From assembly GCA_013178225.1 (NCBI GenBank), contig JABLXE010000013.1, positions 1 through 64,000 on the forward strand: DNA of 64,000 bases, written 5' to 3'. Source of the stretch: Methanotrichaceae archaeon. GTDB taxonomy: Archaea > Halobacteriota > Methanosarcinia > Methanotrichales > Methanotrichaceae. The notes under the pieces were generated by a model that worked only from the letters and a program-made list of their open reading frames with translations, had not been told where the DNA came from and did not search any database. Each line of letters begins with the position of its first letter. Within the stretch, counting starts at the first letter, position 1. Both the position numbers and the translations under genes were made by a program. Of the stretch, positions 8,342 through 38,183 are shown piece after piece.

Positions 8342-9542
8342 CTATCTGGTCCATCTCGACCCGCCAAATCCTCCTGTTTTTTCTGTCGCCTGCAATTCGT
8401 TGTTGGATACGATCTTCAATGTTAAGATGCCACTACTCAGGGCGCCTCCTTTAGGAACATCTGCCCAATCGAAGTGGATGGTATCGCCGCTGATGGTACC
8501 TTTGGCTACATTGGACCAGCTTGGGTTATTGGAGTCTCTTTCTCCATACCACCACAGAGTGCTTCCTAGTTGTCGCAAATAGTACTTGCCTCCATCATCG
8601 CAGTCCCATTTACCGTCCAAGGAGACGGTAGCTGGCCCGGGGGTGCACTATCTGCCCCTAATGATTCCCAGCCGCTCCAGCTTGAACCGTCCCACCATTT
8701 GTGCCAGAGAGCGTTGTCCGTCCCCTTAACAAATACATCGATGCGGTTCGGTCCCCAGGAGACTGCACCTGGTGCCGAGGTCAAAACTCCGCCTAATGAT
8801 TCCCAGCCGCTCCAGTTTGAACCGTCCCACCATTTGTGCCAGAGAGCGTTGTCGGTGCCTCTCACGAAGACGTCCAGACGATTGTTGCTCCAGGAGGAGA
8901 CTGCTGGGGCTGAGGTTAGACCTCCGCCTAATGATTCCCAGCCGCTCCAGCTGGAACCATCCCACCATTTGTGCCAGAGAGCGTTGTCCGTCCCCTTAAC
9001 AAATACATCGATGCGGTTCGGTCCCCAGGAGACTGCACCTGGTGCCGAGGTCAAAACTCCGCCTAATGATTCCCAGCCGCTCCAGTTGAACCGTCCCACC
9101 ATTTGTGCCAGAGAGCGTTGTCGGTGCCTCTCACGAAGACGTCCAGACGATTGTTGCTCCAGGAGGAGACTGCTGGGGCTGAGGTTAGACCTCCGCCTAA
9201 TGATTCCCAGCCGTTCCAGCTGGAACCATCCCACCATTTGTGCCAGAGAGCGTTGTCCGTCCCCTTAACAAATACATCGATGCGGTTCGGTCCCCATGAG
9301 ACCGCACCTGGTGAGGACGTTAAAATCCCGCCGAGGTTCTCCCAGCCGGTACTCCATGAAGAGCCATCCCACCATTTTTGCCACAGGGCATCGTCCGTTC
9401 CCATTACGAAAACATCTAGTCGGTTATTCCCCCAGGAAGAAACCGCAGGGTCCTCTTTGAAGGTGCTTATTGCGCAAGCCGGACAGATTACAGCTACTAA
9501 TACAAGAACAACAACAGAAGATAACATGATTGCTGTCTTCAT
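8342..9542 (-). pseudogene. Secreted PLL-like beta-propeller lectin, two frameshifts
   Basis: The joined product would be about 400 residues. It starts with a signal peptide ([19 protein letters not shown]), followed by about seven repeats of the type [20 protein letters not shown] and WSGWESLGG. These are the repeat of PLL/fucolectin-like propellers (DUF346 type). It ends in a beta-barrel domain ([17 protein letters not shown]...KGTISGDTIHFDW). Frame is lost at about 9085, where CCAGTTGAACC has one base fewer than CCAGTTTGAACC or CCAGCTTGAACC in the sister repeats. It is lost again in the CCCCC run near 8640. Both are homopolymer sites, so sequencing error cannot be excluded. If intact it would bind sugars at the cell surface. 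Confidence 0.75.
8711..9260 (-). repeat. 270-bp nearly identical direct repeats (two propeller blades)
   Basis: GCGTTGTCCGTCCCCTTAAC occurs at 8711, 8981 and 9250, spacings of 270 and 269 bases. The unit is 90 codons, two blades of alternating sequence type. The near identity points to recent duplication or gene conversion. The missing base in the last unit marks the frameshift position. Confidence 0.85.
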
Positions 9543-14714: not shown

Positions 14715-15299
14715 TTAATGAGGGCTGAGCAGGTTATCGAAGCCAGCTGATTCATAAGCCCGTCGGCGGTGATTCGGCCTGGCCTGCAGGTAAATCGCTG
14801 TGGTAGTCAGAGAGAAATGGCCTAACTGGTGCTGCAGATAGCTGATATCTATCCCAGCATCCAATGACCACCGACTGAAGCTATGCCTCAGCAAATGCGG
14901 CGTGATCCTCTTTCGATGCCTCACTTTTCCCGGCCTCGTCTCCTGGAGCCCAGATTTCTCTGCAGCTTCATCCAGCAGCCTCTGGATCTGCCGGGTCGAG
15001 ATATGGCCCTGATCTCTGCCCTCGAAGATGTATCCACTGTCCCGCCCCTGAAGATGGGCATCCAGGGCATCCTGGACAGGCTTGGGCAGAATGGAGGTGC
15101 GCTGTTTGCCACCTTTGCCGTTCACAACATGCAGGTATCCTCCTGCTCCATCCAGGTGCTCGACTCTGAGAGCTGCCACCTCTGAGACACGCAGGCCACA
15201 ACCGGCCATTAGCCACAGAAGAGCAGTCTCTCTGGAGGTAGGTGCTGCGGCCAGCAGTCTATGCCATTCTTCGAGAGTGAGGAAGTCTTCGGGGTGCAT
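14715..15299 (-). CDS. Tyrosine recombinase (phage integrase family), short form
   Basis: 194 residues holding the whole catalytic domain of a tyrosine recombinase: Arg37 (GCGLRVSE), Lys62 (NGKGGKQR), His135 and Arg138 (TPHLLRHSF), His161 (LGHFSLTTT) and Tyr170 (AIYLQ). The N-terminal core-binding SAM-like domain (about 100 residues) is absent, so it resembles short archaeal integrases. It would cut and rejoin DNA at a short inverted-repeat site. A 24-base palindrome lies 16 bases upstream of the ATG and recurs upstream of a relic of the same gene at 2941-3010. No element boundaries or tRNA target were recognised. Confidence 0.88.
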   Translation of the reverse strand: MHPEDFLTLEEWHRLLAAAPTSRETALLWLMAGCGLRVSEVAALRVEHLDGAGGYLHVVNGKGGKQRTSILPKPVQDALDAHLQGRDSGYIFEGRDQGHISTRQIQRLLDEAAEKSGLQETRPGKVRHRKRITPHLLRHSFSRWSLDAGIDISYLQHQLGHFSLTTTAIYLQARPNHRRRAYESAGFDNLLSPH

Positions 15300-15314
15300 G
15301 TACAGTCATGCGAT

Positions 15315-15338
15315 GTCATGATAGATATATTTCATGAC
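15315..15338. promoter_or_regulatory. 24-bp palindrome, copy 3, upstream of the recombinase
   Basis: GTCATGATAGATATAT is followed by TTCATGAC; the arms GTCATGA/TCATGAC are a perfect inverted repeat. Read on the minus strand its centre (AAATATATC) resembles a TATA box about 28 bases before the recombinase ATG, the spacing of a leaderless archaeal promoter. A protein bound to the palindrome would block TBP, so self-regulation is plausible. Alternatively it is the crossover site. Confidence 0.6.
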
Positions 15339-15527
15339 TTTCGGTGATTGGATTTTATCGAGTTATTATTTAGAGTCCTCTATGATGGGCGCCGGTTAAG
15401 CTATACCTCCAAAGATGAGAGCAGCAAAGGCACAATTCTACCTTATGGCGGGCATACTATCGGCCGGTATGGAAAGCCTCATGAATAATAACAGTTGTAA
15501 CCAGTTCCTATAAAGAAGGGGGTAATC

Positions 15528-15890
15528 ATGAAGTTAATCAAGGTAGACCAAGTAGCTAAAGAGCCATGGGAAGATAAATTATTTACTGGTCCGGTCACCT
15601 TGCAAGCGATTATTGGAAGAGACCTTAGTGAAAACTTCTTGATACAACAGGTAAACTTCAGCAAGGGCGTGAGGAACAAATTTCACAGCCACTCTACCGA
15701 ACAAATACTCATTGTCACGGAAGGCGAAGGTATCGTCGCCACAGATAAAGAAGAAATAACCGTCAGACCTGGGGATGTCATATTCATTCCGGCAGGGGAG
15801 AAACACTGGCATGGTGCCGCTAAAGATTGCACCTTCTCGCACATTTATGTCATGCTACCTAATCTGAAAATAACGCAAATTGAGGATTAA
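15528..15890 (+). CDS. Small cupin-domain protein
   Basis: 120 residues forming a single cupin barrel. Motif 1 is FHSHSTEQILIVTEGEGIVA (metal ligands His, His, Glu), and motif 2 is PGDVIFIPAGEKHWHGA with the third His. It is cytoplasmic with no signal peptide. GGGGGT lies six bases before the ATG. Single-domain cupins of this size include decarboxylase-like and sugar-binding proteins; the reaction cannot be assigned from sequence. It stands alone between a recombinase and a restriction-modification relic. Confidence 0.85.
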   Translation: MKLIKVDQVAKEPWEDKLFTGPVTLQAIIGRDLSENFLIQQVNFSKGVRNKFHSHSTEQILIVTEGEGIVATDKEEITVRPGDVIFIPAGEKHWHGAAKDCTFSHIYVMLPNLKITQIED

Positions 15891-15907
15891 GATATTCGCA
15901 AACGAGT

Positions 15908-16116
15908 TGGCGCGAGGCCGACGAACCACTCCGCGCCGCCCTCAAGCAGCAGTGGGACGAGATCGTCGTCGAGACGGATGGCGGCCACGCGGGAGCTGAG
16001 CCTCAATCCTGGGCCGAGATGGCGTCGGATGGCTTCCCCTACCCCCCTTCAAGTGGGATAAGGGGCGGCGGGCACATCTGCGGGCGGATCTGAATGCGAT
16101 CTATACCCATCATTAA
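15908..16116 (+). pseudogene. Relic of an Eco57I-like DNA methyltransferase/restriction protein (C-terminus)
   Basis: The frame reads WREADEPLRAALKQQWDEIV, then VETDGGHAGAEPQSWAEMAS. One base is missing in the TACCCCCCTTC run, after which the other frame continues FKWDKGRRAHLRADLNAIYT. This FKWDxxRRAxLRAxLxAxY pattern is found near the C-terminus of large Eco57I/PglX-type methyltransferases. It has higher GC than its surroundings. No upstream part of the gene remains. Confidence 0.55.
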
Positions 16117-16181
16117 ACTTTGACCGTAACTAGTGCAGCATAACACAAATTTTAAATTTAATACCCTGCCTATAATAAGTC

Positions 16182-16655
16182 ATGGCAATGAAGAGGGCAT
16201 ATGCAGTTAAGCTCAGGGAACAAGAACGAACCGAATTGATCCAATATCTTCGCAAAGGCAGGTCCTCTGCAAGAAGTCAAACTCGTGCTAGAATACTGTT
16301 GCTATCCGATGATGATCAAGAGGATGACGAAATTGTGGAGACGTTAAAGGTAAGCAAGTCGACAGTATGCCGCATCAGAAAGAGATATTGTGAAGGTGGA
16401 TTGGATTATGCATTGCGGGAAAAACCGCGCAGCGGTGCCCCTGCAAAGATAGATGGAACGATAGAAGCAAAGATAACCATGCTTGCTTGTTCAGAGCCTC
16501 CCTATGGCAGATCGAAATGGACTCTCAACCTTTTGGCAGATAGGCTCGTCGAGATGGAAGTTGTAGATTCCATCTCCAATATGACCGTCCAAAGAGTGTT
16601 GAAAAAAACCACCCATGAATCCCTGAATCACACCCGAAACATGAAAGCAGTATAA
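16182..16655 (+). CDS. IS630-family transposase, N-terminal (OrfA) part only
   Basis: 157 residues. The helix-turn-helix region (IVETLKVSKSTVCRIRKRYC, then EGGLDYALREKPRSGAPAKI) and the WTLNLLADRLVE...SNMTVQRVLKK segment are typical of the DNA-binding half of IS630 transposases. The catalytic DDE half that should follow is missing. After RVLKK the frame leaves the family (TTHESLNHTRNMKAV), and no OrfB is found before the next IS begins. TTTAAATTTAATA about 25 bases upstream is a good archaeal TATA box. Probably a dead element. Confidence 0.75.
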   Translation: MAMKRAYAVKLREQERTELIQYLRKGRSSARSQTRARILLLSDDDQEDDEIVETLKVSKSTVCRIRKRYCEGGLDYALREKPRSGAPAKIDGTIEAKITMLACSEPPYGRSKWTLNLLADRLVEMEVVDSISNMTVQRVLKKTTHESLNHTRNMKAV

Positions 16656-16828
16656 TAGGCGCATAGAAGTCCTTGGCATGGGCAGTGCAGGCCGAGAATC
16701 TTCTTTGGGACAATCGATCCCGATAAAAAAACTGGCCTGCGTTTCATGTACACCCGACTGCGTCTCTAGAACGCGAATGGTAATTCACTCAACATTTACG
16801 ATCTGCCCATGCCAGGACCAGTGATATA

Positions 16829-18078
16829 ATGGGGATGGAACGAGAAGTAGTTTGCGGGGCAGACATCCACAAGCAGTTTCTCTTAGCGACCATCTTATCC
16901 AAAGACGGTCAAAAGTTCCAGGACCGATTTGATACGAACTTCGAAGGGCTTCTGAATTTCAGACAATGGCTGCTAAATCATGGCTGTCGTAAATTAGCCG
17001 TTGAATCGACAGCGAGCTACTGGCTGCCGATCTACCTCGTTGTAGGAAAGGACGTCGAATTTATTCTGGCAAATGCCTATCAGATCAAGCATATTCCTGG
17101 TAGGAAGACGGACGTGCTTGATTCGGAATGGATCGCGGAGCTATGTCTCAAGGATTTGATATCTCCATCTCGAATCTTCTCAGAAGATGAGAGGGATTTG
17201 AGATCTATGACAAGAACCAGGGAGAGCTTTGTCGAGATGAGAACTCAAACCAAAAACAGAATTCACCAGGAATTGGAATCGGCATGCATCAAGCTCTCAT
17301 CAGTTTTTTCAGATATTTTCGGCAAATCAGGCCTCTATATTATCAGAGGCATACTAAATGGGTCGAGCATCGAGGATATTCTGGAGGGCATTCCCTCAAA
17401 GAAGCTCAAGGCCAAGAGAAAGGAAATCCAAGACGCTATCCGGGTGAACATGTCACCGGTCCAGGTAAGCCTCATCAGTCTGCTCTTGGATTCGGTTGAT
17501 ACCCTAAACAGAGAGATTGCATCAATCGATAAGCAGATCCAAGCTCTCATATCTGTACGACAAGAGGATCTGAAAATCGCCATGTCAATTCCTGGAATGG
17601 GATTCATCTCCGCATCGACTATTCTTGCCGAAATAGGGAATTTTGAGGATTTTAGGACCGGAGATAAATTGGCGGCTTATTGCGGATTAGTGCCGTCTGT
17701 CTATCAATCGGCCGGAAAGCTGATCACCGGACATATCACCAAGCGTGGCTCACCTCATGTGAGAAGGATGTTGATCGAGGTGGCACATGCCATATCCAGA
17801 ACCAAAGCCGATTCGAAGCTAAAGCGGTTTTATTTCAGAATTAAGAGCAGGCATGGTGCCAAAGTTGCCGTCGTTGCTCTGCCAGAAAGGTCGTCTGCAT
17901 ACTCCATCATCTGATCGTCAATCAGGAGATGTTCGTGGATGAGGCTACGAACAAATCCAAGCGAGCTAAGCCGGGAAGGTCTTCACCATCGTCTGAGACG
18001 ACTATTGGAGAGGCAATTCAGGTTCTCGTCAGAGCTGGATACGCGGTACAAAAAAGATCCGAGCAGGGAGGAGGATAG
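16829..18078 (+). pseudogene. IS110-family transposase with late frameshift
   Basis: The first frame gives 361 residues. The RuvC-like DEDD set is visible: Asp12 (GADIHK), Glu59 (AVESTASYW), Asp95 and Asp98 (KTDVLDSEW). The C-terminal transposase_20 domain has IPGMGFISASTILAEIGNF and KLAAYCGLVPS, and the TKRGSPHVRRMLIEVAHAI segment with the conserved Ser follows. At about 17880 a base is missing (GCTCTGCCAG): the other frame continues ARKVVCILHHLIVNQEMFVD as in intact relatives and runs to 18078. Catalytic parts are all before the shift, so the truncated protein might retain activity. IS110 elements move without terminal inverted repeats, guided by a noncoding end. Confidence 0.85.
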
Positions 18079-24801: not shown

Positions 24802-26495
24802 TTACTTAAGGCATGAAGACCAAGACTGATGCGGAAATAGAAACATCCCCCGATCCCAATGACATATCCCACATTTCGCATTAACATTCCATTCCATTCC
24901 ATAGTACTTTTTGCAGTCCTCTCCGAGCAGCCTTAAGATCAGTTCCTGCGCCTCATTCAATTTAAGATGCTGGCTCATCACATTTTGATCATCACATACT
25001 ATTATTAAAGTTACTCTCATAAATATCTGGAACACCCATCTCATGGTTGGTTTTTGGGTTGGCTTCCTAAGTTGATTGGGAACACTATTCCCTGTCTCCC
25101 TGAGTCTTTTCCGAAGCTTCCACTCCGCGTATGAATAAACAAGCAAGCAAAGGACCATAATCATTGACAAGGCCTCGATGCGTTCCTCCTTCTTGAGAAA
25201 CACTTCAGAGACGTGGAAACTTTTGTTTTTCAGGAAGCGAAAGCCTCTCTCCACAATTTGCTGCCCTTTATAATGTTCAGCATGGTCTCCGATTCGAGAT
25301 CCAAATCATTGCTCGCTAACACGAACCTGCCAAGTTTATGGCGTTCGCGCGTTACAGATGCTTGATCGATTTCAATATCAGCTTCGATTGCATACTGGAC
25401 TATCCGCGTTTCATCCTTCTTTGGTCTTCCCCTCTTTTTTTCTACACGTTCCAAGACCATGGCGATCTTAAGATCCTTGAATTTGAGAAAAGGATGATCA
25501 CAAATCCATTTCCTTGCTGCAGCTATGGCATCTGGTTCACAAGCATACCGTTCGCGCCGCAGTGATTTGAGATCCTTTTCGGCATCGATCAGCTTTTTTT
25601 TGAAGTCTCTTATCAAACGTTTTCTCCATTCGCGCCTGCATCTCCTGAGACCAGATAACCACTGCTTTCTGAGGGATGTCTCCAAAATTCAGATAAGTAG
25701 CATGGAAAGCATAGCGTGGATCGGTTGCAGGTGTCATTTCCAGTTCTGCTGATATCAAGGCCTTTGCAGCTCCTACTGTCGCAGGAACGCGAGTGATCCA
25801 ATGAAGGTCTTTTCCAGGTAGTCTGAGGTTTTCTTCCGTATAAATAGCGCTATCTGCGACCCAGTAACTGGAATCTTCGACGGAAATGGACCCCCTAAGC
25901 CTCTGGATCATCTCCATCAAACTCTTTTTATCAGATTTGTTTCCGGAGAATGCTTGTGCAAAAAGAGGAACGCCAGACTGATTCACGACCATCCCTAAAA
26001 TAAAGCGCTTGAGATCCATTCGATTATCTTTGGCATGGCCGAAAGTAATTTCAATTGAATCCGTGCTATCTGGAGCATCGCCTTCATACTTTCCGAACAT
26101 CGAGAAATTTGTTGTATCCACATGGAGAAGATGAGTCTCTTCGGTCATTTTGCTCATGGCTTTAAGAGCAATCTCATTGAACAGCTCGGTGGAACCATAC
26201 TCGAAAATTGCATCTAATGTTCTCCCCAATGCATCATCATTCAGGTCCGATGGCGAAATGCCCTCTCCCAATAAGCTCTCGGTGGGCAGACCAATGAAAA
26301 AGTTGGAGTAGAAATAGAGGCGGGATTCAATAAAACCCAGGCCATTCAGAGTCATGGCCTTTATTATGCAGAATGACTGGCTTTATGCCGTCTGGTTTTT
26401 GGAAGCGCGCGATCTATGACCTCAGCTATGCCAAGCTCATCGAAGATTCCAGCTATTATCCCAAAATGATCGATCGCATTTGTTGATATATCCAT
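24802..26495 (-). pseudogene. IS1634-family transposase, three frameshifts
   Basis: Start MDISTNAIDHFGIIAGIFDE at 26495. Frame breaks near 26375 (TCTGCATAATAAAGG, one base short of SAIIKAM). The next part runs MTLNGLGFIESRLYF, HLLHVDTTNFSMFGKY (Asp of DDE) and YWVADSAIYTEENL (second Asp). It breaks again near 25600. The third part contains KKKLIDAEKDLKSLRRE and ETMLNIIKGSKLWREAF. It breaks at about 25250, and the last part has RGFRFLKNKSFHVSEVFLKK with the catalytic Glu region, then MVLCLLVYSYAEW. All family segments are present in order, so this is a full-length element disabled by small indels. Confidence 0.85.
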
Positions 26496-26776: not shown

Positions 26777-27836
26777 TCATTTGCTCGTTGTTCTTGTGAT
26801 GCGTGCAGGCGTATTTGTCCCCATCTCCACGCTACTTGTGGTAAGGCAGGAGCCATAAGTTATGCAGCGGATTCCGGTCGGACAACCGCTTCCACTGGGA
26901 CATGTACTCCCTGTCGCGCAACCTATAGCTGGAGCTGCTTACACAGCTTTCTCCACCCGGACAATAGCAGCCTGTTGGACAATCTCTACCCGTTATGCAG
27001 CTATTGCTGGTTGGACAATCTGAGCTTGTGACGCAGCCGCTATTTGTGGGGCAGACGGAATTGGTGCTGCATGAATCTCCAGTAGGGCATCCAGATCCTG
27101 ATGGGCAATCGCAGCCCGTCACGCAATCGCAACCTGTCGGACAATCGCTAGTGGTGACGCAGTCGCTATCGCTATGACAGAGAGAGCTGGTAGAGCATCA
27201 GCTATCAGTCGGACAGCCGCTTTGGGTTGCGCACGTAGATCCGGTAGGGCAGGTGCAATCCGTCGGGCAACTGCCATCAGTAGGACAGCTGCTCGTGGTG
27301 ATGCATCCGGTCGTCGTCGGGCAGTAGGAATTAGTAGAACATTCGCAGCCTGTGGGACATGTGTTTCCACTCGCGCAACTCGTTGAAGTTTGGCAATTGA
27401 CTCCGCTGGGGCAAATATCTCCAGTGGGGCACGAAGATCCAGTCGGGCAGTCACATCCGGTAGCGCAATTCGTACTTGTAGCACAAATTGAGTCACTGGC
27501 GCATTTAGCGCCACTTGCACATTCAATGCCGGTAGGGCAGGTCGAACCAGTTGGACAGTTGCACCCCGTTGAACATGCCGCCGCCGTCATACAATAGGAA
27601 TTGCTGGGACAACTACTGCCGCTTGAACAGCCGCTGCCTGTTGGACAGTTGGCAGCAGATGAACATTTGGTTCCTGTGGGGCAGCCGTCGGAAGTTGGGC
27701 ATGTAGAACCGGTAGGACATCTGACGCCGGTAGGAGAACCACTCGTGGTTATGCGGATGGCAGATGCCTCGGCTAGTGCTCCGTTTAATATCAGCACCAC
27801 CAAGAAGGCCGCTAGCAGTACTATCAAGCGCCTCAT
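26777..27836 (-). pseudogene. Secreted Cys-ladder (C-x5-C repeat) protein, stop and frameshift
   Basis: A signal peptide (LIVLLAAFLVVLILNGALAEA) is followed by about 50 hexapeptides of the form C-P-T-G-x-x, occasionally shortened to C-D-C or C-E-C steps. In the same frame a TGA at 27198-27200 (CPTDS-stop-CSTSS) replaces what is probably Gly (GGA). The Cys pattern then continues for about 90 residues. A frameshift near 26922 moves the pattern to another frame (CATGSTCPSGSGCPTG), which ends at 26777. Joined length is about 353 residues. Such regular Cys spacing suggests a disulfide-bonded solenoid, as in insect antifreeze proteins; that is inference from pattern only. Confidence 0.65.
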
Positions 27837-28230: not shown

Positions 28231-30288
28231 TCATATTACGGTAATGGCCTCATGCAGGTCTTCCACCCGGCTGCTCAGATTTATCCACTCTCTCGGCGGA
28301 TTGGCGAAGATCAGCGCGGTCAGGTTTTCCTGGAAGTACTTGTCCATCAGCTTTTCGAGATCGTACATGCCTGATAGATACTCCTCCAAGTAATCGTTGT
28401 TCGCCTCCAATATCACCGCCTTGGGCTCCCCCTTGAGAGCCGGAAAATCGGTATAATTGTAGGCCAGCGGATACGCCAGGTTATAGGCGACCAGGAACAG
28501 GATGGATAATACCACCAGCGCACCTAGAGCATTTCTGCGGTTGATTATCAATAGAGCTGCTGCTGCAGCCAGAATCAGCCAGGGCAGAACGGTCTTTGCA
28601 TATCTCTCAACGCTGGATACGTACTCGATCATGGCCACAAAGAGCGTGGCGTGATCCCCGAAGGCGATGATGCCGTTGTTGAACTGAGTGCTGTCGGTGA
28701 ACATCATTACTTTGCCGTCCCCGTAATTCGTGCCGGCCATTGCCAGGTGGCGGGCGAATTGGCTGTTGAGCTTGATCCCTTCGGTGAACTCGCGGGTCAG
28801 GAAGAAGGCCGAGGTATCATTGCGGTAGTGAGAGAAATAGCTGGGTCGGGTTATGATCTCAAAGCTCGGGTCCGCCCCGTCCAGCCTCGTAAAACTGCAC
28901 CCGGTCTCCCACAATAGATCTCCTACCAGGTAGCGCGCCATTTCCGGAGGAAACTCTCCCTTTTGGCTGACTGAACCCCTGGATTCGGTGTAAATGTCCT
29001 GAACACCGGTGGGAAGGAAGGTGTAGCCCAGCTGTTCCGAGAAGGGATTAAGATGAGTGCACATACCGTATATGTCGGTATGCTCACCGATCAGTATCAG
29101 GCCGTTTCCCTGGGCCGTGAAGTTCATTATGGCATCCACTTCGGATTCATTATAGGGACTGGTAACGCACTTCAGAATCAGCACCGATGGCCGCCCCCGG
29201 GAGATGTTCTCCAGGAGCTCGAGAGATATTCCGTCGGTCAGCACGTAATCTCCGGGACTTGCCGCCGGATTTTTATCGGTCCGGTTTATGATCCATTCTA
29301 TATCATAAATGGTGGTGAGGAAATTGACCAGCCCGAAGTAATTGTTGGTGCCGCTCACCGGGTCCTGCTTGTAGGTCTGCAGATAATCCGTCCAGGTGGG
29401 TTCCCATTCGCTGTTGGTCTCATCTATTATCACCAGTGGATCAGAGCTGGAAGTGGTGGGAACGTAATAGACCAGGACCAATATGAAGAAAGCTGCCAGC
29501 AATGGGATGCTTATCCACATTGAGGCCGTCCCGCTCTTCTGCAGCCTTCGAATTGTGCCGCTCGGAATGACGATGGACATCAGGAGGACTGAAGCCAGCG
29601 GAAGCGCCAATGCTGCCGGATTATCCGGAATGAAGGCCGAGATAGCGGGCACGTAAAGAAGCTTTTGCAAAGTCAGAACCAAGAACAGGAATGGAACCAG
29701 CACTGCAGCGATCAGCGATCTCAGAAGTGATTTTCGATCGATCTCCATCATGGCGATCAGCACTATTCCTGCAACCATCAGTGCGAGGTAAAAGGGAAGC
29801 GAGATCTTCACCTCGTCCATGACTATTGGAAGATGAGTCTTGGAATGGTACAGAACCAGATAACCCATATCGTTAATATCGTAGCGAAGCCTGAGAAGGG
29901 AAGAGAAGTTCAAAAAAATTGCGTTCATGCTTTTCATCAAGAAGGAGACATCCAGGAATTGAATTGTCAATACGCCCACAAGAGCGGGTACGAAGGTCTC
30001 AATCTTCGCATTTATGGCTGCCAGCGCAACAACCAATACGATCACTAATGGCGCAAATGTACTGTTAACCAAATAAAAATAAAAAAATATAAGAGCTGCC
30101 AGTGCGACACCAATGGCCGCCAAGTCGTTCCTCTCTATCTTGTGGTCTCTGAAGGCCACCAGAAGCAATAGGGCGGAGGAGACCGCGACCATGAAGATCG
30201 AATAATCCCACAGATCAAACAGCATGATATAGCTGCCTAGCAGGAATAGGCCGGTTGCGAATGCAGCCACCTTGGACTCAAATTCCAT
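28231..30288 (-). CDS. Membrane protein with DUF4350-like domain, third gene of operon
   Basis: 685 residues. About eight membrane helices come first (residues 5-255). A large extracytoplasmic part follows with LVIIDETNSEWEPTW and PSVLILKCVTSPYNESEVDA, then GNGLILIGEHTDIYGMCTHL. This is the beta-alpha-beta core of DUF4350/GATase1-like domains seen in GldG-type ABC exporter accessory proteins. Two further helices lie near 580-620 (TVLPWLILAAAAALLII, GALVVLSILFLVAYNLAY). A last domain contains AVILEANNDYLEEYLSGMYD. No ATPase gene is nearby. It overlaps the preceding gene by 11 bases. Function is unknown; a role in cell envelope or export is a guess. Confidence 0.75.
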   Translation of the reverse strand: MEFESKVAAFATGLFLLGSYIMLFDLWDYSIFMVAVSSALLLLVAFRDHKIERNDLAAIGVALAALIFFYFYLVNSTFAPLVIVLVVALAAINAKIETFVPALVGVLTIQFLDVSFLMKSMNAIFLNFSSLLRLRYDINDMGYLVLYHSKTHLPIVMDEVKISLPFYLALMVAGIVLIAMMEIDRKSLLRSLIAAVLVPFLFLVLTLQKLLYVPAISAFIPDNPAALALPLASVLLMSIVIPSGTIRRLQKSGTASMWISIPLLAAFFILVLVYYVPTTSSSDPLVIIDETNSEWEPTWTDYLQTYKQDPVSGTNNYFGLVNFLTTIYDIEWIINRTDKNPAASPGDYVLTDGISLELLENISRGRPSVLILKCVTSPYNESEVDAIMNFTAQGNGLILIGEHTDIYGMCTHLNPFSEQLGYTFLPTGVQDIYTESRGSVSQKGEFPPEMARYLVGDLLWETGCSFTRLDGADPSFEIITRPSYFSHYRNDTSAFFLTREFTEGIKLNSQFARHLAMAGTNYGDGKVMMFTDSTQFNNGIIAFGDHATLFVAMIEYVSSVERYAKTVLPWLILAAAAALLIINRRNALGALVVLSILFLVAYNLAYPLAYNYTDFPALKGEPKAVILEANNDYLEEYLSGMYDLEKLMDKYFQENLTALIFANPPREWINLSSRVEDLHEAITVI

Positions 30289-32392
30289 CCTGTTCCCTCC
30301 CGCCCATGGACTTGAACAGGTTTTCGAGGAACAGCTTCAAGTTGGGGTCAGGATAGCTGAATACAGGCTCGTACTCAACGAAGTTTTTAAAGATGGTGTG
30401 ATCTCCTACCACGATCACCTTTCCCTGACCGATATCTTCCACCGCCATTACCGGTGTTGAGTTGCCGTACGTGGCAATGGGACTTCCTCCTAAAACTTCA
30501 GTCGCAGAATACATGGTTATGTTTCCCCAGATGCCGTCCATGAGCGGATCTTGCAGTGATCGGGCGCCGATCCTGGTCTCCTTCATATAGGGAAGGTTGT
30601 ATCCCCAGGTGGTGTAGTTGAAATAGCTGATCTCTCCCAACAGGCTGTCGTTTAAGCGCATCCCAAGCGGCACCAAGAGGGAGTTGGCAGCGGCATTTCC
30701 TGGATCGGATGGAATCTCCGCATGAAAGCCGTCAAAGACTACAAGCGTTCCGCCGCTTTGCACGTAACTTCTCAGCTTCTCGATCTCTTCCGGAGAAAAA
30801 GAGTGAGTGGGACCCATAGTAATATAAGCCGCATAATTTTGCAGGTCGTCGGGGACTGCTCCTACCAACACCGGATTGAATCCGTAGTGCTGAGCGAATA
30901 TGGCCACGAAAACGTTCTTGTACTCGTGCGGAGGTCCGTAACTTTCGATATTGGCGTGACCGATGTCCAGGGCGATCATATTTGCCGGCTCGGAGGCCAA
31001 GGGAAGCGCTGCCTGTACCTGTACCAGAACCAGCACCAGTGCTGCCGACAGCATTAGCGGCTTGACGGCAGCTAACCGGGCCCGATAAACCCCTAGCAAA
31101 ACCAGCACCACCAGCAGCACCCTGAACCAGGTGCTCTTGAGAAAGCTATTCTCGTAATTGAGATAGCTCATTACCCTGGCTATGAAATCGTAATTGTAAG
31201 GGAGATTTGGGCCGCTCATGGAATCGCTATTGGCAATTGCAAGCACCCTGCCTCTTCCATCCTCTACAGAGATAGCTATGGGGAGCACTCCGTACTCCTC
31301 GCTATTTTCCGGAACAACATTCCCCATATAGGCATGATTCTCTGCAGCCCAATCGCCTAGATCAGCCCATGTGGTGTACTTAAGGGCATATAGCACGTGA
31401 GCATCGGACCTATTGGAGTCCAGCGTGGCTCCTGCCGTCTCCTCCATGCTGTCGAAGCCCGCCAGGCTGGGAAAATGCGGCTCCCAGAGCATGCTGTAGT
31501 CGAAGTTCAGGTGCAGCCCAAAGCGATCCAAGATCGGATTTAGGGTGTTATAGCAGTCCATAATATTGGTGTGATCGCCGAGCACGAAAAGGCCGCCGCC
31601 ATCCCGTACGAAGTTGATGATGTTCTCTCTCTCCTGGCTGGAGTAATCATCTTCCGGCGTCTCCAGGACCAGTATGCTTGCGCCTTTCAGAGAATCTGGG
31701 GTCAATGCTTGATCGAGTATGGAGACGTTATAGCCTATTGTTTTCAGGTACCTCAATGTGGAATGAGTGATGGTGTCGTTATCGAAAAAGGCAGAGTCCA
31801 GTCCGTGGTGAAAGCCGTCGTAAATAATCTGGCCGTCCTTCTTCTGTGCCAGAGGATCAAGAGGGGATAAACTGATCAGAATGAGGATCAGAGAAACGTA
31901 TAGCGTGACTTTGGTAAGCGGCTTTAGATCCCGTTTCCCGGCTTCCTGCAGGTCATAAAGCACAGCCACGGCAAAGAAGGCAAGGGTCAGCAGCATCAGG
32001 ACCCAGAAGCTGAGGTTCAACCCCAGGCCGTCGACCAGCGCCAGCGGAAGCAAGATCAGCGCGCTCTTCAATAGATATTCATTTCTATAAAAATAATAGG
32101 CCACTATTAGCAGCAGAAATATATAAGGCACCGGGTTCCTTATTAAGAACAGCATAAAGAAGATTACAAGGCCGAGCACACGTGCTTTCTCAAACCGGGG
32201 CCATGCGAAGAAGATCAGGAGAGATAGTCCTGCCACCAGGTCGACGACGTACAGAGGCGTCATCAGGTGCAGATAAGCGTGAACGACTCCGACCTCCCAA
32301 ATTATGAAAAATAGGAGTGGCAGGTAAGGGATGAGATCCCTGAGTCGCAAGGGCTCTTTCGAGTTGTTGCTCATAGTAAGCGTCTCGGTCAT
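30278..32392 (-). CDS. Membrane protein with two DUF4350-like domains, second gene of operon
   Basis: 704 residues. Multiple helices fill about 1-175. A first soluble domain follows (IIYDGFHHGLDSAFFDNDTI, ASILVLETPEDDYSSQEREN, GGGLFVLGDHTNIMDCYNTL). Helices come next near 405-450 (WFRVLLVVLVLLGVY). A second soluble domain has the same logic (ALDIGHANIESYGPPHEYKN, AAYITMGPTHSFSPEEIEKL, GGTLVVFDGFHAEIPSDPGN). A short segment reading GQGKVIVVGDHTIF ends it. It shares the GDHT signature with its neighbour, so the two genes are relatives. The repeated DHT and DGFH motifs look like a conserved binding site. No enzyme activity can be assigned. Confidence 0.75.
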   Translation of the reverse strand: MTETLTMSNNSKEPLRLRDLIPYLPLLFFIIWEVGVVHAYLHLMTPLYVVDLVAGLSLLIFFAWPRFEKARVLGLVIFFMLFLIRNPVPYIFLLLIVAYYFYRNEYLLKSALILLPLALVDGLGLNLSFWVLMLLTLAFFAVAVLYDLQEAGKRDLKPLTKVTLYVSLILILISLSPLDPLAQKKDGQIIYDGFHHGLDSAFFDNDTITHSTLRYLKTIGYNVSILDQALTPDSLKGASILVLETPEDDYSSQERENIINFVRDGGGLFVLGDHTNIMDCYNTLNPILDRFGLHLNFDYSMLWEPHFPSLAGFDSMEETAGATLDSNRSDAHVLYALKYTTWADLGDWAAENHAYMGNVVPENSEEYGVLPIAISVEDGRGRVLAIANSDSMSGPNLPYNYDFIARVMSYLNYENSFLKSTWFRVLLVVLVLLGVYRARLAAVKPLMLSAALVLVLVQVQAALPLASEPANMIALDIGHANIESYGPPHEYKNVFVAIFAQHYGFNPVLVGAVPDDLQNYAAYITMGPTHSFSPEEIEKLRSYVQSGGTLVVFDGFHAEIPSDPGNAAANSLLVPLGMRLNDSLLGEISYFNYTTWGYNLPYMKETRIGARSLQDPLMDGIWGNITMYSATEVLGGSPIATYGNSTPVMAVEDIGQGKVIVVGDHTIFKNFVEYEPVFSYPDPNLKLFLENLFKSMGGREQDGI

Positions 32393-32405: not shown

Positions 32406-33176
32406 TCATATGCGCTCTTTGATCTTGGAGGCCACTTCGGGCAGCCTCTTTCTGTAACCTAGCAGCATCGCTGCAGCTATGATAATGGCCAGTCCGATTA
32501 TGATACGGTACAAATTGTCCATTAGAGACATTCGTGCACTGTAATAGTTATAATTCGCTCTAAAGACGATATCAGTATCATTTCCTGTTTGATCTGCGGC
32601 CCAGACGAGAGCGTTCTCTCCCATGATCATCTGCCTGGAAAAGGGCTCGCTGGCATTTCCCACGGTTACAACCGACGTTCCCATTCGGGCACCTTCCGGA
32701 GGAATTACCACGATCTTTGCCTCCTGCGGCTCGCCCACATTCACGCTGGTGTAGAGCGTATGTCGGTCCCCGTTTCTGGTCATCAGACCGTCCCAGTCGA
32801 AGCTTAAATTGAAATTGTAGGGTTCATTTAGCGGATACCCCGATAAGAGCATGGATATGGTCCTCTGACCGTCCTGTTCGTTCACATCAGCATCGATGAC
32901 CTGACCCAGAGAGTCCTCTCCGGCATAATTGCTGGTTTCTCCTCCCCGGAAGGAGAAGGTATAAAGAATGCTGGGCTGCTGGGGGATCAGCGTGGTAGAC
33001 CAGGTGCATCTTACGCTATCATCGTCATTGATGTCATAAATGTAAGAGTGATTAACAGGCTTAAATGCAATCTCCTGGGCACTTCCGCTGGCGGAAATGG
33101 CCAGTGCAGCCAGTAAAATAAATAACATTGGCTTAATAATAAGAATTTTAACCCGGTGTGTATCTCTGCCTGACAT
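32406..33176 (-). CDS. Exported protein with C-terminal anchor, first gene of operon
   Basis: 256 residues. A signal peptide (PMLFILLAALAISASGSAQ) is followed by an ectodomain of about 190 residues with beta-rich segments (SILYTFSFRGGETSNYAGED, YNFNLSFDWDGLMTRNGDRH) and several sequons. One C-terminal helix (YRIIIGLAIIIAAAMLLGY) comes before a basic tail, so the protein sits outside the membrane. It lies 13 bases ahead of the next gene on the same strand and is presumably the third partner of the two DUF4350-like proteins. Confidence 0.75.
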   Translation of the reverse strand: MSGRDTHRVKILIIKPMLFILLAALAISASGSAQEIAFKPVNHSYIYDINDDDSVRCTWSTTLIPQQPSILYTFSFRGGETSNYAGEDSLGQVIDADVNEQDGQRTISMLLSGYPLNEPYNFNLSFDWDGLMTRNGDRHTLYTSVNVGEPQEAKIVVIPPEGARMGTSVVTVGNASEPFSRQMIMGENALVWAADQTGNDTDIVFRANYNYYSARMSLMDNLYRIIIGLAIIIAAAMLLGYRKRLPEVASKIKERI

Positions 33177-34634: not shown

Positions 34635-36020
34635 TTACCAGAGTGCGAAACCGAAGTACCTCAGGGCGTAGATCACGCCTACGACGATTACTGCCAGGCC
34701 GAAGAACCTGGTGGTCCAGGTGCCGGCGGCAATGTACTTTTCTCCTATCCGGGCCCCTACGGTGCGCGAAAACGTAGCAATGGGAATTATCGGGACTCCG
34801 TGGCCCAGCCCAAAGATTAAGAGCATCATTCCTCCAGCCAGAGGCGTCACATCCTGAGCTGAAAGCCAGATCAAAACGGGAAACACCATGGAAATCGCGC
34901 ACGGAGCCCAGCCCAGGGCGAAGAATACGCCAAGAGAGAAGGCTCCGATGAACGATGAATACTTGAAAAGCCCAATTGAAGTCTTGACCGCCCTCTGGAC
35001 GAACCCCTCGCGGTCCTGATGCGGGCCATCCGGCCCTCTTCTGAAGATCGAGGTTATCGGCGCTGCAATCTCGTCCAGCGGCTTGAGATTGGAGATTCCG
35101 AGAATTATCATCAACAGTCCGGCAATCAGGTCGAATAGGCTGGCATCCCTCACGAAGACGCCGATCTGGGATATGAAGAGGCCGATTATGAAGAAGACGA
35201 GTCCCATGCCCAGGGTGAAGGCCACTCCTATTGTGAACCCCTCTCTGGAAGTGGAGATGGATTTCTTGAGGTAATCCTCTTTCCTTCTCATAGTCATGAT
35301 GTAGGAAAAGATGGCGATCATCAGGGCGATGGAGCAGGGAGCAAGAGAGGTGACAATTCCCAGGAAGAACATTCCCAGAGCCGATACTTTCTGGCTGGAG
35401 GTCTCAATTTGCAGGGCGGACCTTTCGGCTCCGTTTAAGTCTGCCAGCCTGGCCTGCAAGGCTTCAGCGCTCTGGACGCCATCTATTTCGCCTTCTCCGA
35501 CCCTGTAGACATGGTAAACAGCCGCGACTTTCCCCTCTTCATCGATCAACAGGATGGTCGGATTGGAGAAGCCGCCCCTTACATCCCAATAGTCGATGTA
35601 TTTTCCGGCGATTGAGTAAGGCTCCAGATCTTCGGTCCAAAGCCAGCTGATGTTCGTCTTCCACCACTGTTCGGCCAGAGTCTTTCCGTTGATTGAATAG
35701 GGGTTCTTGCGCAGGTTCAATGTGATGATGCGCGTCTTTGGGTCCATTTCCTCCAGCCGTCCCAGCTCTTCGATCTGGGATTTGAGGGACCTTTCGCACT
35801 CCCTGCAAATCGGATTTTCGATATTGGTTATGTGAAGAACTACCGGCTCTCCGCGGAAGTCCGACAGCGAAAACGGCTGGCCTTCAATGGTCACAGCACT
35901 GAAATCCGGAGCTGCAAGCGTATGGTTGAGATCTGATGCTTGAGACGCTGCAGGCAAGGTAAAGCTCAGGAGGATCGATAAAGAGATGAGAACGGTGAGA
36001 GCGCTTCTGTCCGCCTGCAT
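34635..36020 (-). CDS. Redoxin-CcdA fusion, membrane thiol-electron carrier
   Basis: 461 residues from MQADRSALTVLISLSIL. A signal helix is followed by a thioredoxin-like (TlpA/redoxin) domain at about 30-180: TIEGQPFSLSDFRGEPVVLH, then ENPICRECERSL with a C-x2-C, and later NPTILLIDEEGKVAAVYH. A six-helix CcdA/DsbD-like domain comes next, with its paired cysteines in LGIVTSLAPCSIALMIAI and FALGWAPCAISMVFPVLI. The C-terminal helices are LPLAGGMMLLIF-like. It would pass electrons from cytoplasmic thioredoxin across the membrane to outside thiols. The start at 36020 is chosen because the longer frame overlaps the preceding gene. An operon with 36028-36594 is likely. Confidence 0.85.
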   Translation of the reverse strand: MQADRSALTVLISLSILLSFTLPAASQASDLNHTLAAPDFSAVTIEGQPFSLSDFRGEPVVLHITNIENPICRECERSLKSQIEELGRLEEMDPKTRIITLNLRKNPYSINGKTLAEQWWKTNISWLWTEDLEPYSIAGKYIDYWDVRGGFSNPTILLIDEEGKVAAVYHVYRVGEGEIDGVQSAEALQARLADLNGAERSALQIETSSQKVSALGMFFLGIVTSLAPCSIALMIAIFSYIMTMRRKEDYLKKSISTSREGFTIGVAFTLGMGLVFFIIGLFISQIGVFVRDASLFDLIAGLLMIILGISNLKPLDEIAAPITSIFRRGPDGPHQDREGFVQRAVKTSIGLFKYSSFIGAFSLGVFFALGWAPCAISMVFPVLIWLSAQDVTPLAGGMMLLIFGLGHGVPIIPIATFSRTVGARIGEKYIAAGTWTTRFFGLAVIVVGVIYALRYFGFALW

Positions 36021-36027
36021 TCGGCCC

Positions 36028-36594
36028 TCACTCTTTCCACGATGAAGCGTTCTCTTGGTGGTAATATTCGGCATCCTGGAGATAGGCCCGGATGTCCTCC
36101 TCGCTCATGGCATCCTCTTCGCTATGCCAGACGACTGCGACCTTGCCATCCGATCCTGGGGCCAGGGTGATGAAGACCGTGGTGGGCACGTAGTAAGCTC
36201 CGCCGGTGGGACCGTAGGCCGCAAATACTTCATAGGCCTCTTTTTCGCCGCTGTCGGCCAGCAGGTCGTAGTAGGTCACCTTATCTTCCTGGTCGTCCAA
36301 GGCCTTTTCCAGGTTGGCTATCTGGACCTTGCAGGACTTGCAGTCCTCGCTGTGGTCCAATATGAGCACCGGTCTTTCTTTCAAAGCCTCCAGCACCCAG
36401 GAAGGATGTTCAACAGGGTTGCTGGCGTTTACATGCTGCTCCGGGTAACTTATCCACCAATCGCTCTTTTCCGAGCCTATCGAAAATGAGGGCTCGTAAC
36501 TATCTCCTTCTGCCAGCATCGATACCGTGAGCACGATGGATAGAATTATGACAATAGAAACCGTTAGTGATTTGAGCGCCATCTCCATGACCAT
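36028..36594 (-). CDS. Exported thioredoxin-like protein
   Basis: 188 residues. A signal/anchor helix (SLTVSIVIILSIVLTVSMLA) is followed by a thioredoxin-like fold with ERPVLILDHSEDCKSCKVQI. CKSC replaces the usual CGPC or CxxC active site, and a cis-Pro loop follows in AYYVPTTVFITL. It acts on extracytoplasmic disulfides, probably fed by the CcdA fusion encoded seven bases downstream. Confidence 0.82.
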   Translation of the reverse strand: MVMEMALKSLTVSIVIILSIVLTVSMLAEGDSYEPSFSIGSEKSDWWISYPEQHVNASNPVEHPSWVLEALKERPVLILDHSEDCKSCKVQIANLEKALDDQEDKVTYYDLLADSGEKEAYEVFAAYGPTGGAYYVPTTVFITLAPGSDGKVAVVWHSEEDAMSEEDIRAYLQDAEYYHQENASSWKE

Positions 36595-37133: not shown

Positions 37134-38183
37134 ATGAGAGCAGCTTTGATCGCACTTCTAATTGCGCTATTCTTGATAATTCCACCGGCGGCCGATGCAA
37201 GTTGTTCCGTTGCCGGCTGCGGCGGCAGTGGCGGCGATTCCTGGGAGACCGGTGCCAGGGACTTCATGGACTCAGACGTTCCTCTGATAGGCGTTTCTCA
37301 GACCGGCACAGGCGATTCTCAGGAATTGGGGACCACCAGCAGCTTCAGGGCGGGGGCATCAGTCGTCTCGCCGGCAAACGGCACTTATCAGCAGATCGAC
37401 CGGGAGCCGACAACCGATCTCATCCTGCCGGACTTCAGGTCCGGCCTCTTCATAAAGGGCGATCTTCTGGAGCCCATATCTGCGGTCTCCGGCTCTGATC
37501 TCTTGCTGGACGTATCGAACCAGCGGATGGAAGGCCAGGGTCGGGCCAAAGGCGCAATCAGCCTGCCGGTTGGAGAGTTCCTGTACGAAAACGGCACTTT
37601 GAAGCCCGTCCCGGAGATCGCTCAGATTCTCGGCGCAGCAGGCGTGTCGAGAGATGAGCCGGCCGTGGTTTACAGCGACAGCTTCAGCTCGGGGGAGGCC
37701 ACGCTGATGGTATGGATTCTGTGTTATTTGGGCCAGGATCGGGTCAGAGCTATGGACGGCGATCTGAAACGGTGGATGTACCAGAGCCTCCCTCTGGAGA
37801 GCGTGGCCCGAACCAGAAACTCCACCACCTATGATTACCGCTTGCTCCCGGAGTTAAGAGCCGATTCCGGCTGCATCGAATCCGGAGAGCCTCAGCTGGT
37901 CGATGCCAGAACCTTCCAGGAATACGGGAAGTCCCGCCTGCCATCTGCCATCTTCATAGCGCCCGAGCAGGTGCTGGAGGACGGCAGGGTCGCAGCAGGA
38001 GAAAAGCTCAACGACACTTTTGCCAGGCTGGATAAAAACAGGCCGGTGGTGGTCTATTCTCAGGATCTGTTCAAGGCCTCGCTGGTATGGTACGCCCTGC
38101 AGCTCATGGGCTTTGACTCGCGGATCTTCAACTGGCAGGAATGGGATGTCGAGGAGCCTTCGGGCGCTTTCGTCATCCGTTGA
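37134..38183 (+). CDS. Secreted double rhodanese-like protein lacking the catalytic Cys
   Basis: 349 residues with signal peptide (IALLIALFLIIPPAADA) and a CSVAGCGGSGG segment just after it. Two rhodanese-like modules are visible (about 110-215 and 255-345): LLLDVSNQRMEGQGRAKGAI and QLVDARTFQEYGKSRLPSAI each carry the conserved Asp and the GHI-type turn. In the active-site loops, where sulfurtransferases have Cys, the sequences are VVYSDSFSSGEA and VVVYSQDLFKAS, so neither has it. It may bind but not transfer sulfur, or the early CSVAGC cysteines may serve instead. It lies near thiol-redox genes on the opposite strand. Confidence 0.75.
   Translation: MRAALIALLIALFLIIPPAADASCSVAGCGGSGGDSWETGARDFMDSDVPLIGVSQTGTGDSQELGTTSSFRAGASVVSPANGTYQQIDREPTTDLILPDFRSGLFIKGDLLEPISAVSGSDLLLDVSNQRMEGQGRAKGAISLPVGEFLYENGTLKPVPEIAQILGAAGVSRDEPAVVYSDSFSSGEATLMVWILCYLGQDRVRAMDGDLKRWMYQSLPLESVARTRNSTTYDYRLLPELRADSGCIESGEPQLVDARTFQEYGKSRLPSAIFIAPEQVLEDGRVAAGEKLNDTFARLDKNRPVVVYSQDLFKASLVWYALQLMGFDSRIFNWQEWDVEEPSGAFVIR

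Follow-up and report, generated by a model that had tools for sequence, protein, structure and literature searches.

What kind of protein is encoded by a minus-strand stretch in which cysteine recurs at every sixth residue, and is the in-frame TGA that interrupts this stretch, followed by a change of frame, damage or a special feature? The locus lies at 26777-27836 of a 64,000-nucleotide stretch of contig JABLXE010000013.1 (hereafter the window) from an archaeon of the Methanotrichaceae. The genome to which the window belongs (G000; 2.98 Mb, 28 contigs, 99.8% complete) encodes MCR alpha, and the host archaeon is apparently methane-producing.

The open reading frame starts at position 27836 on the minus strand, its ATG preceded by GGAGG six bases 5', and the encoded protein begins MRRLIVLLAAFLVVLILNGALA. 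A signal-peptide-like segment of approximately 24 residues (27765-27836, recognized by eye) is followed by Cys hexads, with Cys at every sixth residue from codon 40 onward, and after 212 codons the frame meets a TGA at 27200-27198 (27198-27836 for this first part of the gene). Read across the TGA, the same frame carries 44 consecutive C-x5-C rungs (26943-27719), and 5 extra rungs follow in a different frame (26846-26920) whose own stop is at 26779-26777, giving a total of 49 Cys rungs on the minus strand. The 212-residue part alone contains 33 Cys. When its residues after position 24 were shuffled 10,000 times, C-x5-C pairs averaged 5.5 and never exceeded 13, versus 28 observed, and the longest run, 29, compared with runs of no more than 8; at the nucleotide level, a 10-rung TGY pattern gave 35 matches versus none in 100 dinucleotide shuffles. 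No further run of four or more rungs was found in the whole window outside the 44- and 5-rung stretches. The window ladder is far beyond chance. The limits of the locus, 26777-27836, are those given by a first-pass annotation of the same DNA, and the regular C-x5-C ladder that it had reported, continuing unbroken over one TGA and then meeting a frameshift, is borne out by the 44 rungs in one frame and the 5 in another. Its figure of about 50 CPTGxx steps stands as a count of rungs, but not as a description of each step: an exact CPTG is encoded 12 times over the 301 codons ahead of the frame slip, and the hexad consensus is C-(P/x)-T-(G/S)-x-x, with CPTG in some steps only.

The same design recurs elsewhere in the genome. 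A seven-rung pattern gave 195 matches versus 3 in a reversed control, and 16 of the 17 rows returned by the own-genome search fell on the coding strand of seven loci, namely the window copy (C5), C4, C24, C27, C7, C22, and C8; the seventeenth row, antisense to C27, was dropped. The six loci other than the window copy have no stops. One further intact ladder, of 233 amino acids, is present in G001, a genome of a different genus in the same family. Given six uninterrupted loci in the own genome and one in G001, the family is taken as real and the window copy as the odd one out; by their sequences, these genes appear to form a small ladder family, unnamed in the databases searched. The intact homologues by which the first-pass annotation had proposed to judge its reading thus turned up, with the same basic spacing. 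Irregular spacing in relatives was to count against it: a spacing of six is the commonest in all seven intact proteins, which upholds the ladder, but strict regularity does not extend to C27, C7, C22, and C8, where extra Cys are frequent.

Beyond these two genomes the family could not be followed. A ladder profile searched against 392 genomes of the phylum matched six, and after frame reading the genuine ladders were those of G000 and G001 only; the matches in G014, G265, G198, and G118 were dropped, that in G118 for having no frame with at least five C-x5-C and the others as short simple repeats or an arginine-rich frame. The window protein, compared with 60 relatives, matched three (G000, G001, and the dropped G014 stretch); the low-complexity filter of BLAST may reduce the reach of such ladder searches. 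The C4 ladder found no match in plasmid or phage collections, and the pattern matches of the C4, C7, G001, and window ladders to viral contigs yielded none that was confirmed. A phage or plasmid origin was considered and set aside, there being no relatives of the C4 ladder in plasmid or phage records and none confirmed for the four ladders in viral contigs. No archaeal Cys-ladder protein is described in the titles and abstract openings of open-licence PMC literature, often in the best-ranked part of it only, which does not establish absence from print.

Across 283 hexads, Thr occupies position 3 (+2 from Cys) in 85% and Ser does so in 11% (Thr/Ser 96%), position 4 (+3 from Cys) is Gly, Ser, or Ala in 76% (Gly alone 56%), position 2 is Pro in 48%, and position 6 is Gly in 25%. 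Ser, Thr, Ala, or Val occupies position 5 in a fraction of hexads ranging from 0.44 to 1.00. The 81 occurrences of CPTG are written in 50 different codon spellings, and where adjacent hexads share a residue, different codons are commoner than the same codon in eight of eight genes; we therefore attribute the regularity to selection on the protein and not to a young DNA repeat. Intact ladder proteins contain 31-71 Cys, with up to 58 consecutive rungs in the longest ladders, and in several paralogues CxxC and CxxxC pairs occur as short additions. Five of the seven intact proteins have an odd total of Cys, and two of these five (G001 and C8) have a Cys in the signal region (by eye). Higher repeat periods differ (C27, 12; G001, 18; C7, 24; C4, 30 residues; none clear in the window copy), and sequence therefore cannot choose between a two-sided coil of 12 residues and a three-sided coil of 18.

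Other features are shared more narrowly. At the start of the ladder, the C4 and G001 proteins have a TTS..PTG..CPT motif in common with the window protein, and C24 carries a looser version of it. The C4, C27, and G001 proteins have in common a short tail of the ELRPETYS type (by eye), perhaps a retention or sorting signal. Tails reading ELRPETYS, IFKPQTSS, and ELKPPTSA stand at the C-termini of L139:9001-10137, L141:9072-9938, and L146:8264-8965. No such tail was seen in any frame at the end of the window copy (by eye). In C24 the ladder is followed by an additional C-terminal part of approximately 240 residues, for which no match was found in Pfam (E 0.5) or PDB (E 1).

With intact siblings at hand, the interruptions of the window copy can be assessed. 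The TGA (27198-27200) is codon 213 and lies between Cys codons 208 and 214, at hexad position 6 and thus on no cysteine rung; since position 6 is the most variable of the hexad, the Cys pattern survives whichever residue stood there. Thr or Ser is found at hexad position 3 in 28 of 28 hexads before the TGA and in 87% of 15 after it, compared with 83-100% in intact proteins. In the frame-slip region (26921-26942), the distance between neighbouring Cys codons is 25 nt, not 18, such that the slip shifts register as well as frame. Among the ladder genes found, nonsense and frame lesions are confined to this copy. Just past its 3' end, also on the minus strand, is a fragment of an IS1634-type transposase (25537-26355; aligned to positions 47-309 of a 483-position profile). 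On this sequence evidence the window copy is likeliest a damaged gene, and we take it as a recent pseudogene because in regularity its hexads remain close to those of intact copies. Other ladder copies could do the job of the broken one.

Alternatively, both lesions could be sequencing or assembly errors in a gene that is in fact intact, for which we see an appreciable but clearly minor chance. The regularity of hexads on either side of the TGA, which is about that of intact paralogues, would be expected of such a gene, as would the intact ribosome-binding site and signal segment. The slip could be of a single base provided that a register shift of two residues accompanied it (25 nt being 24 + 1), and single register shifts (Cys spacing 7) are present in the intact C4 and G001 ladders; however, the window ladder is otherwise without any register shift, two separate errors would have to fall within one gene, and the transposase fragment adjoins the ladder. 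Read-through or recoding of the TGA combined with a programmed frame slip, yielding a full-length protein, is very improbable. While the ladder does stay in frame for 15 rungs past the TGA, recoding is unlikely because the TGA falls on the variable sixth hexad position, away from cysteine; moreover, the ladder is out of register after the slip, and six other copies in the same genome have no need of recoding. No tRNA-Sec scored above the Rfam cut-off among the 150 of 427 first-look candidates of the genome that were scored, and the four matches below cut-off have counterparts in 14 of 14 control genomes. A selenoprotein or recoded UGA was accordingly rejected as an assignment, the TGA standing apart from the conserved Cys and tRNA-Sec being absent above cut-off among the candidates scored. 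The UGA of the window copy is best read as damage rather than as a special feature.

Preceding the window ladder on the same strand are three genes, which encode: (i) a 256-aa protein with a signal-like start and a C-terminal membrane segment, both recognized by eye (32406-33176; 62% identity to its G001 orthologue), (ii) a membrane protein of 704 aa that scores over cut-off for ABC_transp_aux, DUF4350, and IFT52_GIFT (30278-32392; 60% identity), and (iii) a membrane protein of 685 aa whose match to DUF4350 stays below cut-off (28231-30288; 54% identity). In G001 the orthologues of the 256-, 704-, and 685-aa genes begin 22 nt after the ladder, that of the 256-aa gene first; the ladder is thus downstream of the cluster in the window and upstream of it in G001. 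Among 392 phylum genomes, only G000 and G001 have the 704-aa gene, and they are the same two that have genuine ladders (the draws of 392 genomes for this gene and for the ladder profile followed one rule and are taken as identical), and the 256-aa gene is found in 2 of 50 family genomes, again G000 and G001. The association between ladder and cluster appears close in the two genomes on which it rests. No plasmid relative of the 704-aa protein was found.

Further upstream, on the same strand as the ladder, are genes for a redoxin plus DsbD-type membrane protein of thiol-disulfide exchange (34635-36074) and a secreted-looking thioredoxin-like protein with a CKSC motif, seen by eye, and Pfam matches below cut-off (36028-36594). 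Near these disulfide-exchange genes, at 37134-38183, is a secreted-looking protein with a rhodanese domain. No redoxin-DsbD, thioredoxin-like, or rhodanese gene was apparent in 18 kb of G001 from the ORF starts. A DUF4785-type gene adjoins both the C4 and G001 ladders (47% identical); it occurs commonly, in 25 of 50 family genomes, and so is not ladder-specific. Also beside the C4 ladder, L139:6962-8899 encodes a 645-aa protein that joins a carbon-nitrogen hydrolase and PAD_porph (peptidyl-arginine deiminase type) in one chain. Elsewhere in the window, tandem arrays occupy 1260-2043 (66 bp x 11.6, inside a 341-aa minus-strand ORF at 1227-2252) and 8657-9332 (135 bp x 5), and a series of recombinase- or transposase-like ORFs (by eye) at 14715-17914 makes the left part of the window look rich in mobile DNA.

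AlphaFold2 was given the 188 residues that precede the TGA, with no alignment, and a 72-residue stretch to which four further stretches of the window ladder had been aligned; both models were unusable, with mean pLDDT of 46.2 and 44.1. None of eight ladder members had a Pfam match at E ≤0.01, and none matched the Pfam hexapeptide model even at E ≤1. NCBIfam LpxD models weakly matched one of the eight members (E 0.06), NCBIfam collagen-like adhesins matched four of eight far below cut-off (best E 2.5e-7), and PHROG phage tail-fibre models matched some members (best E 2.9e-13); we read the adhesin and tail-fibre matches as compositional. Assignment as a collagen-like protein was rejected, as Gly does not occupy every third residue (position 1 being Cys, with Gly in 56% of hexads at position 4 and in 25% at position 6). 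Searched against PDB at E ≤10, the family profile returned two entries, the beetle antifreeze protein TmAFP (1EZG, E 0.08) and the collagen-like BclA (E 0.1). The 1EZG match spans nearly the whole chain in hexad register, with E values that are non-significant (0.08 for the profile and 0.083 for the C4 protein), and the window protein alone did not retrieve 1EZG, only three unrelated chains (E 0.94-4.2). The likeness to insect antifreeze ladders that the first-pass annotation had offered by pattern accordingly finds an echo in 1EZG as the nearest solved structure, in register at E 0.08, and its placing of a strict Cys ladder outside the cell agrees with the secreted-looking start and Cys hexads of the sequence; the disulfide-linked solenoid that it foresaw is still a prediction.

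On balance, with confidence a little above even, we interpret the locus as a damaged member of a Cys-hexad family whose products are predicted to be secreted, disulfide-stabilised rods or stalks on the cell surface. The chain would exit the cell through its N-terminal signal and be oxidised outside by envelope thiol-disulfide proteins; we infer disulfides because of the Cys spacing, the export, and the nearby exchange enzymes. Hexad would then stack on hexad to give a stiff, narrow rod with disulfides between adjacent hexads and Thr/Ser-rich faces outward, which could serve as a structural rod or stalk on the cell surface, and the three membrane proteins of the cluster may anchor, export, or assemble the ladder. 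Against this reading stand the AlphaFold means (46 and 44), and the Pro that follows Cys in 48% of the 283 hexads is, judged from sequence, awkward for a tight beta-helix. Also unfavourable to it are the repeat periods that vary among paralogues, the odd Cys totals of five of seven intact proteins, the adhesin and tail-fibre matches of some members, and a cluster association limited to two genomes in which ladder and cluster stand in opposite order. More tentatively, and in our view doubtfully, these genes might specify an undescribed archaeal surface-fibre system in which rods of up to 58 hexads with a continuous disulfide ladder are served by three membrane proteins forming a dedicated export or anchoring module, the whole being moved as a unit between rare methanogen lineages.

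In favour of the rod, disulfides are needed in archaeal sheaths (PMC6242892, PMC10593813, and PMC11576556, in the parts available). The SH/MspA sheath proteins of Methanospirillum and Methanothrix are secreted to the envelope and present in several copies per genome, and disulfides matter in the sheath that they form; the ladders, likewise in several copies, are predicted to resemble them in export and in disulfides. As described in the available parts of PMC6242892 and PMC10593813, SH/MspA proteins are set apart by having one or two Cys per monomer versus 31-71 in the ladders.

Alternatively, the Cys could remain reduced outside the cell, where they would bind metal or sulfur species in the manner of a secreted metallothionein-like buffer. 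Very high Cys content in an anaerobe, the added CxxC and CxxxC pairs of several paralogues, and the secreted-looking rhodanese gene nearby would suit such a role, but with Cys strictly six residues apart and both a Thr and a small residue fixed in each hexad, the sequence suggests geometry over ligand clusters, and thiol-disulfide exchange genes are close by; we consider this account improbable.

There is likewise only a small chance, in our estimation, that the ladder folds as a three-sided left-handed beta-helix with 18 residues per coil and unpaired core Cys, as in internal cysteine ladders. The 18-residue period of the G001 protein is what this fold would require, whereas other paralogues have periods of 12, 24, and 30 residues; Ser, Thr, Ala, or Val at position 5 and the weak LpxD match of one member fit it, but the Pfam hexapeptide model matched none of the eight. 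The leucine-rich-repeat protein internalin J (InlJ) is said to have a Cys ladder stacked at a single coil position. In FdlA, a fucoidan lyase with a beta-helix, an internal ladder of five Cys is known (PMC9410043, in the part available), and is a further point for this fold; Cys are stacked at one coil position there as well, the difference being that the five belong to a large enzyme.

Returning to the disulfide-stabilised rod, the comparison with TmAFP (Pfam PF02420) can be made residue by residue. In both, Cys recurs every six residues, extra Cys occur at spacings of 3 and 4, and the third residue after Cys is small (in 11 of 12 hexads in the printed stretch of 1EZG and in 76% of 283 in the archaeal ladders), which fits a common inside pattern. 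The beetle repeat, however, comprises 12 residues (TCTxSxNCxxAx) with a TCT face (PMC8038014, in the part available), whereas the ladders have no such face, place Thr at +2 rather than at -1 and +1, have Pro directly after Cys in roughly half of their hexads, and extend to as many as 58 rungs in a row. Membership of the TmAFP family was rejected, as the shared Cys spacing is accompanied neither by this repeat, nor by a PF02420 score over cut-off, nor by significant similarity to 1EZG. Although 1EZG is the top in-register PDB match of the family profile and of C4, an ice-binding protein of the beetle kind can hardly be credited, given zero or one TCT per protein, the absence of 1EZG from the matches of the window protein, and no Pfam AFP match over cut-off anywhere in the genome (one match, E 5.6, away from the ladder genes). 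In its available text, a study of disulfide caps in ice-nucleating proteins (PMC13288671) has no bearing on ladders.

Ladders of this kind may not be restricted to archaea. A ten-rung scan of genome contigs returned at least 118 stretches, most of those listed being low-complexity or antisense (by eye), and among the listed matches only one, L137:3768-5336 (Zixibacteria JAGVQM010000021.1), looked like a secreted coding ladder (by eye), with 48 C-x5-C steps and dockerin-like C-terminal repeats (by eye). It resembles the archaeal proteins in its signal-like start (by eye) and ladder length and differs from them in its hexad (C-P-G-x-x-T), where Thr occupies position 6 in 94% and a small residue position 4 in 19%. 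The two ladders are apparently convergent, and, as ladders of similar length are built from different hexads, the design seems to have arisen on more than one occasion.

The disulfide-ladder design was already familiar from the short antifreeze proteins of beetles, and a damaged copy alongside six intact siblings would point to turnover within the ladder family of this archaeon. Should the rods prove real, long and probably oxidised disulfide ladders are built outside the cell by an anaerobic archaeon. They would then be a candidate component of the methanogen envelope and could offer a natural scaffold on which to base stiff protein fibres, besides serving as a test case in the ordered formation of many disulfides by anaerobes.
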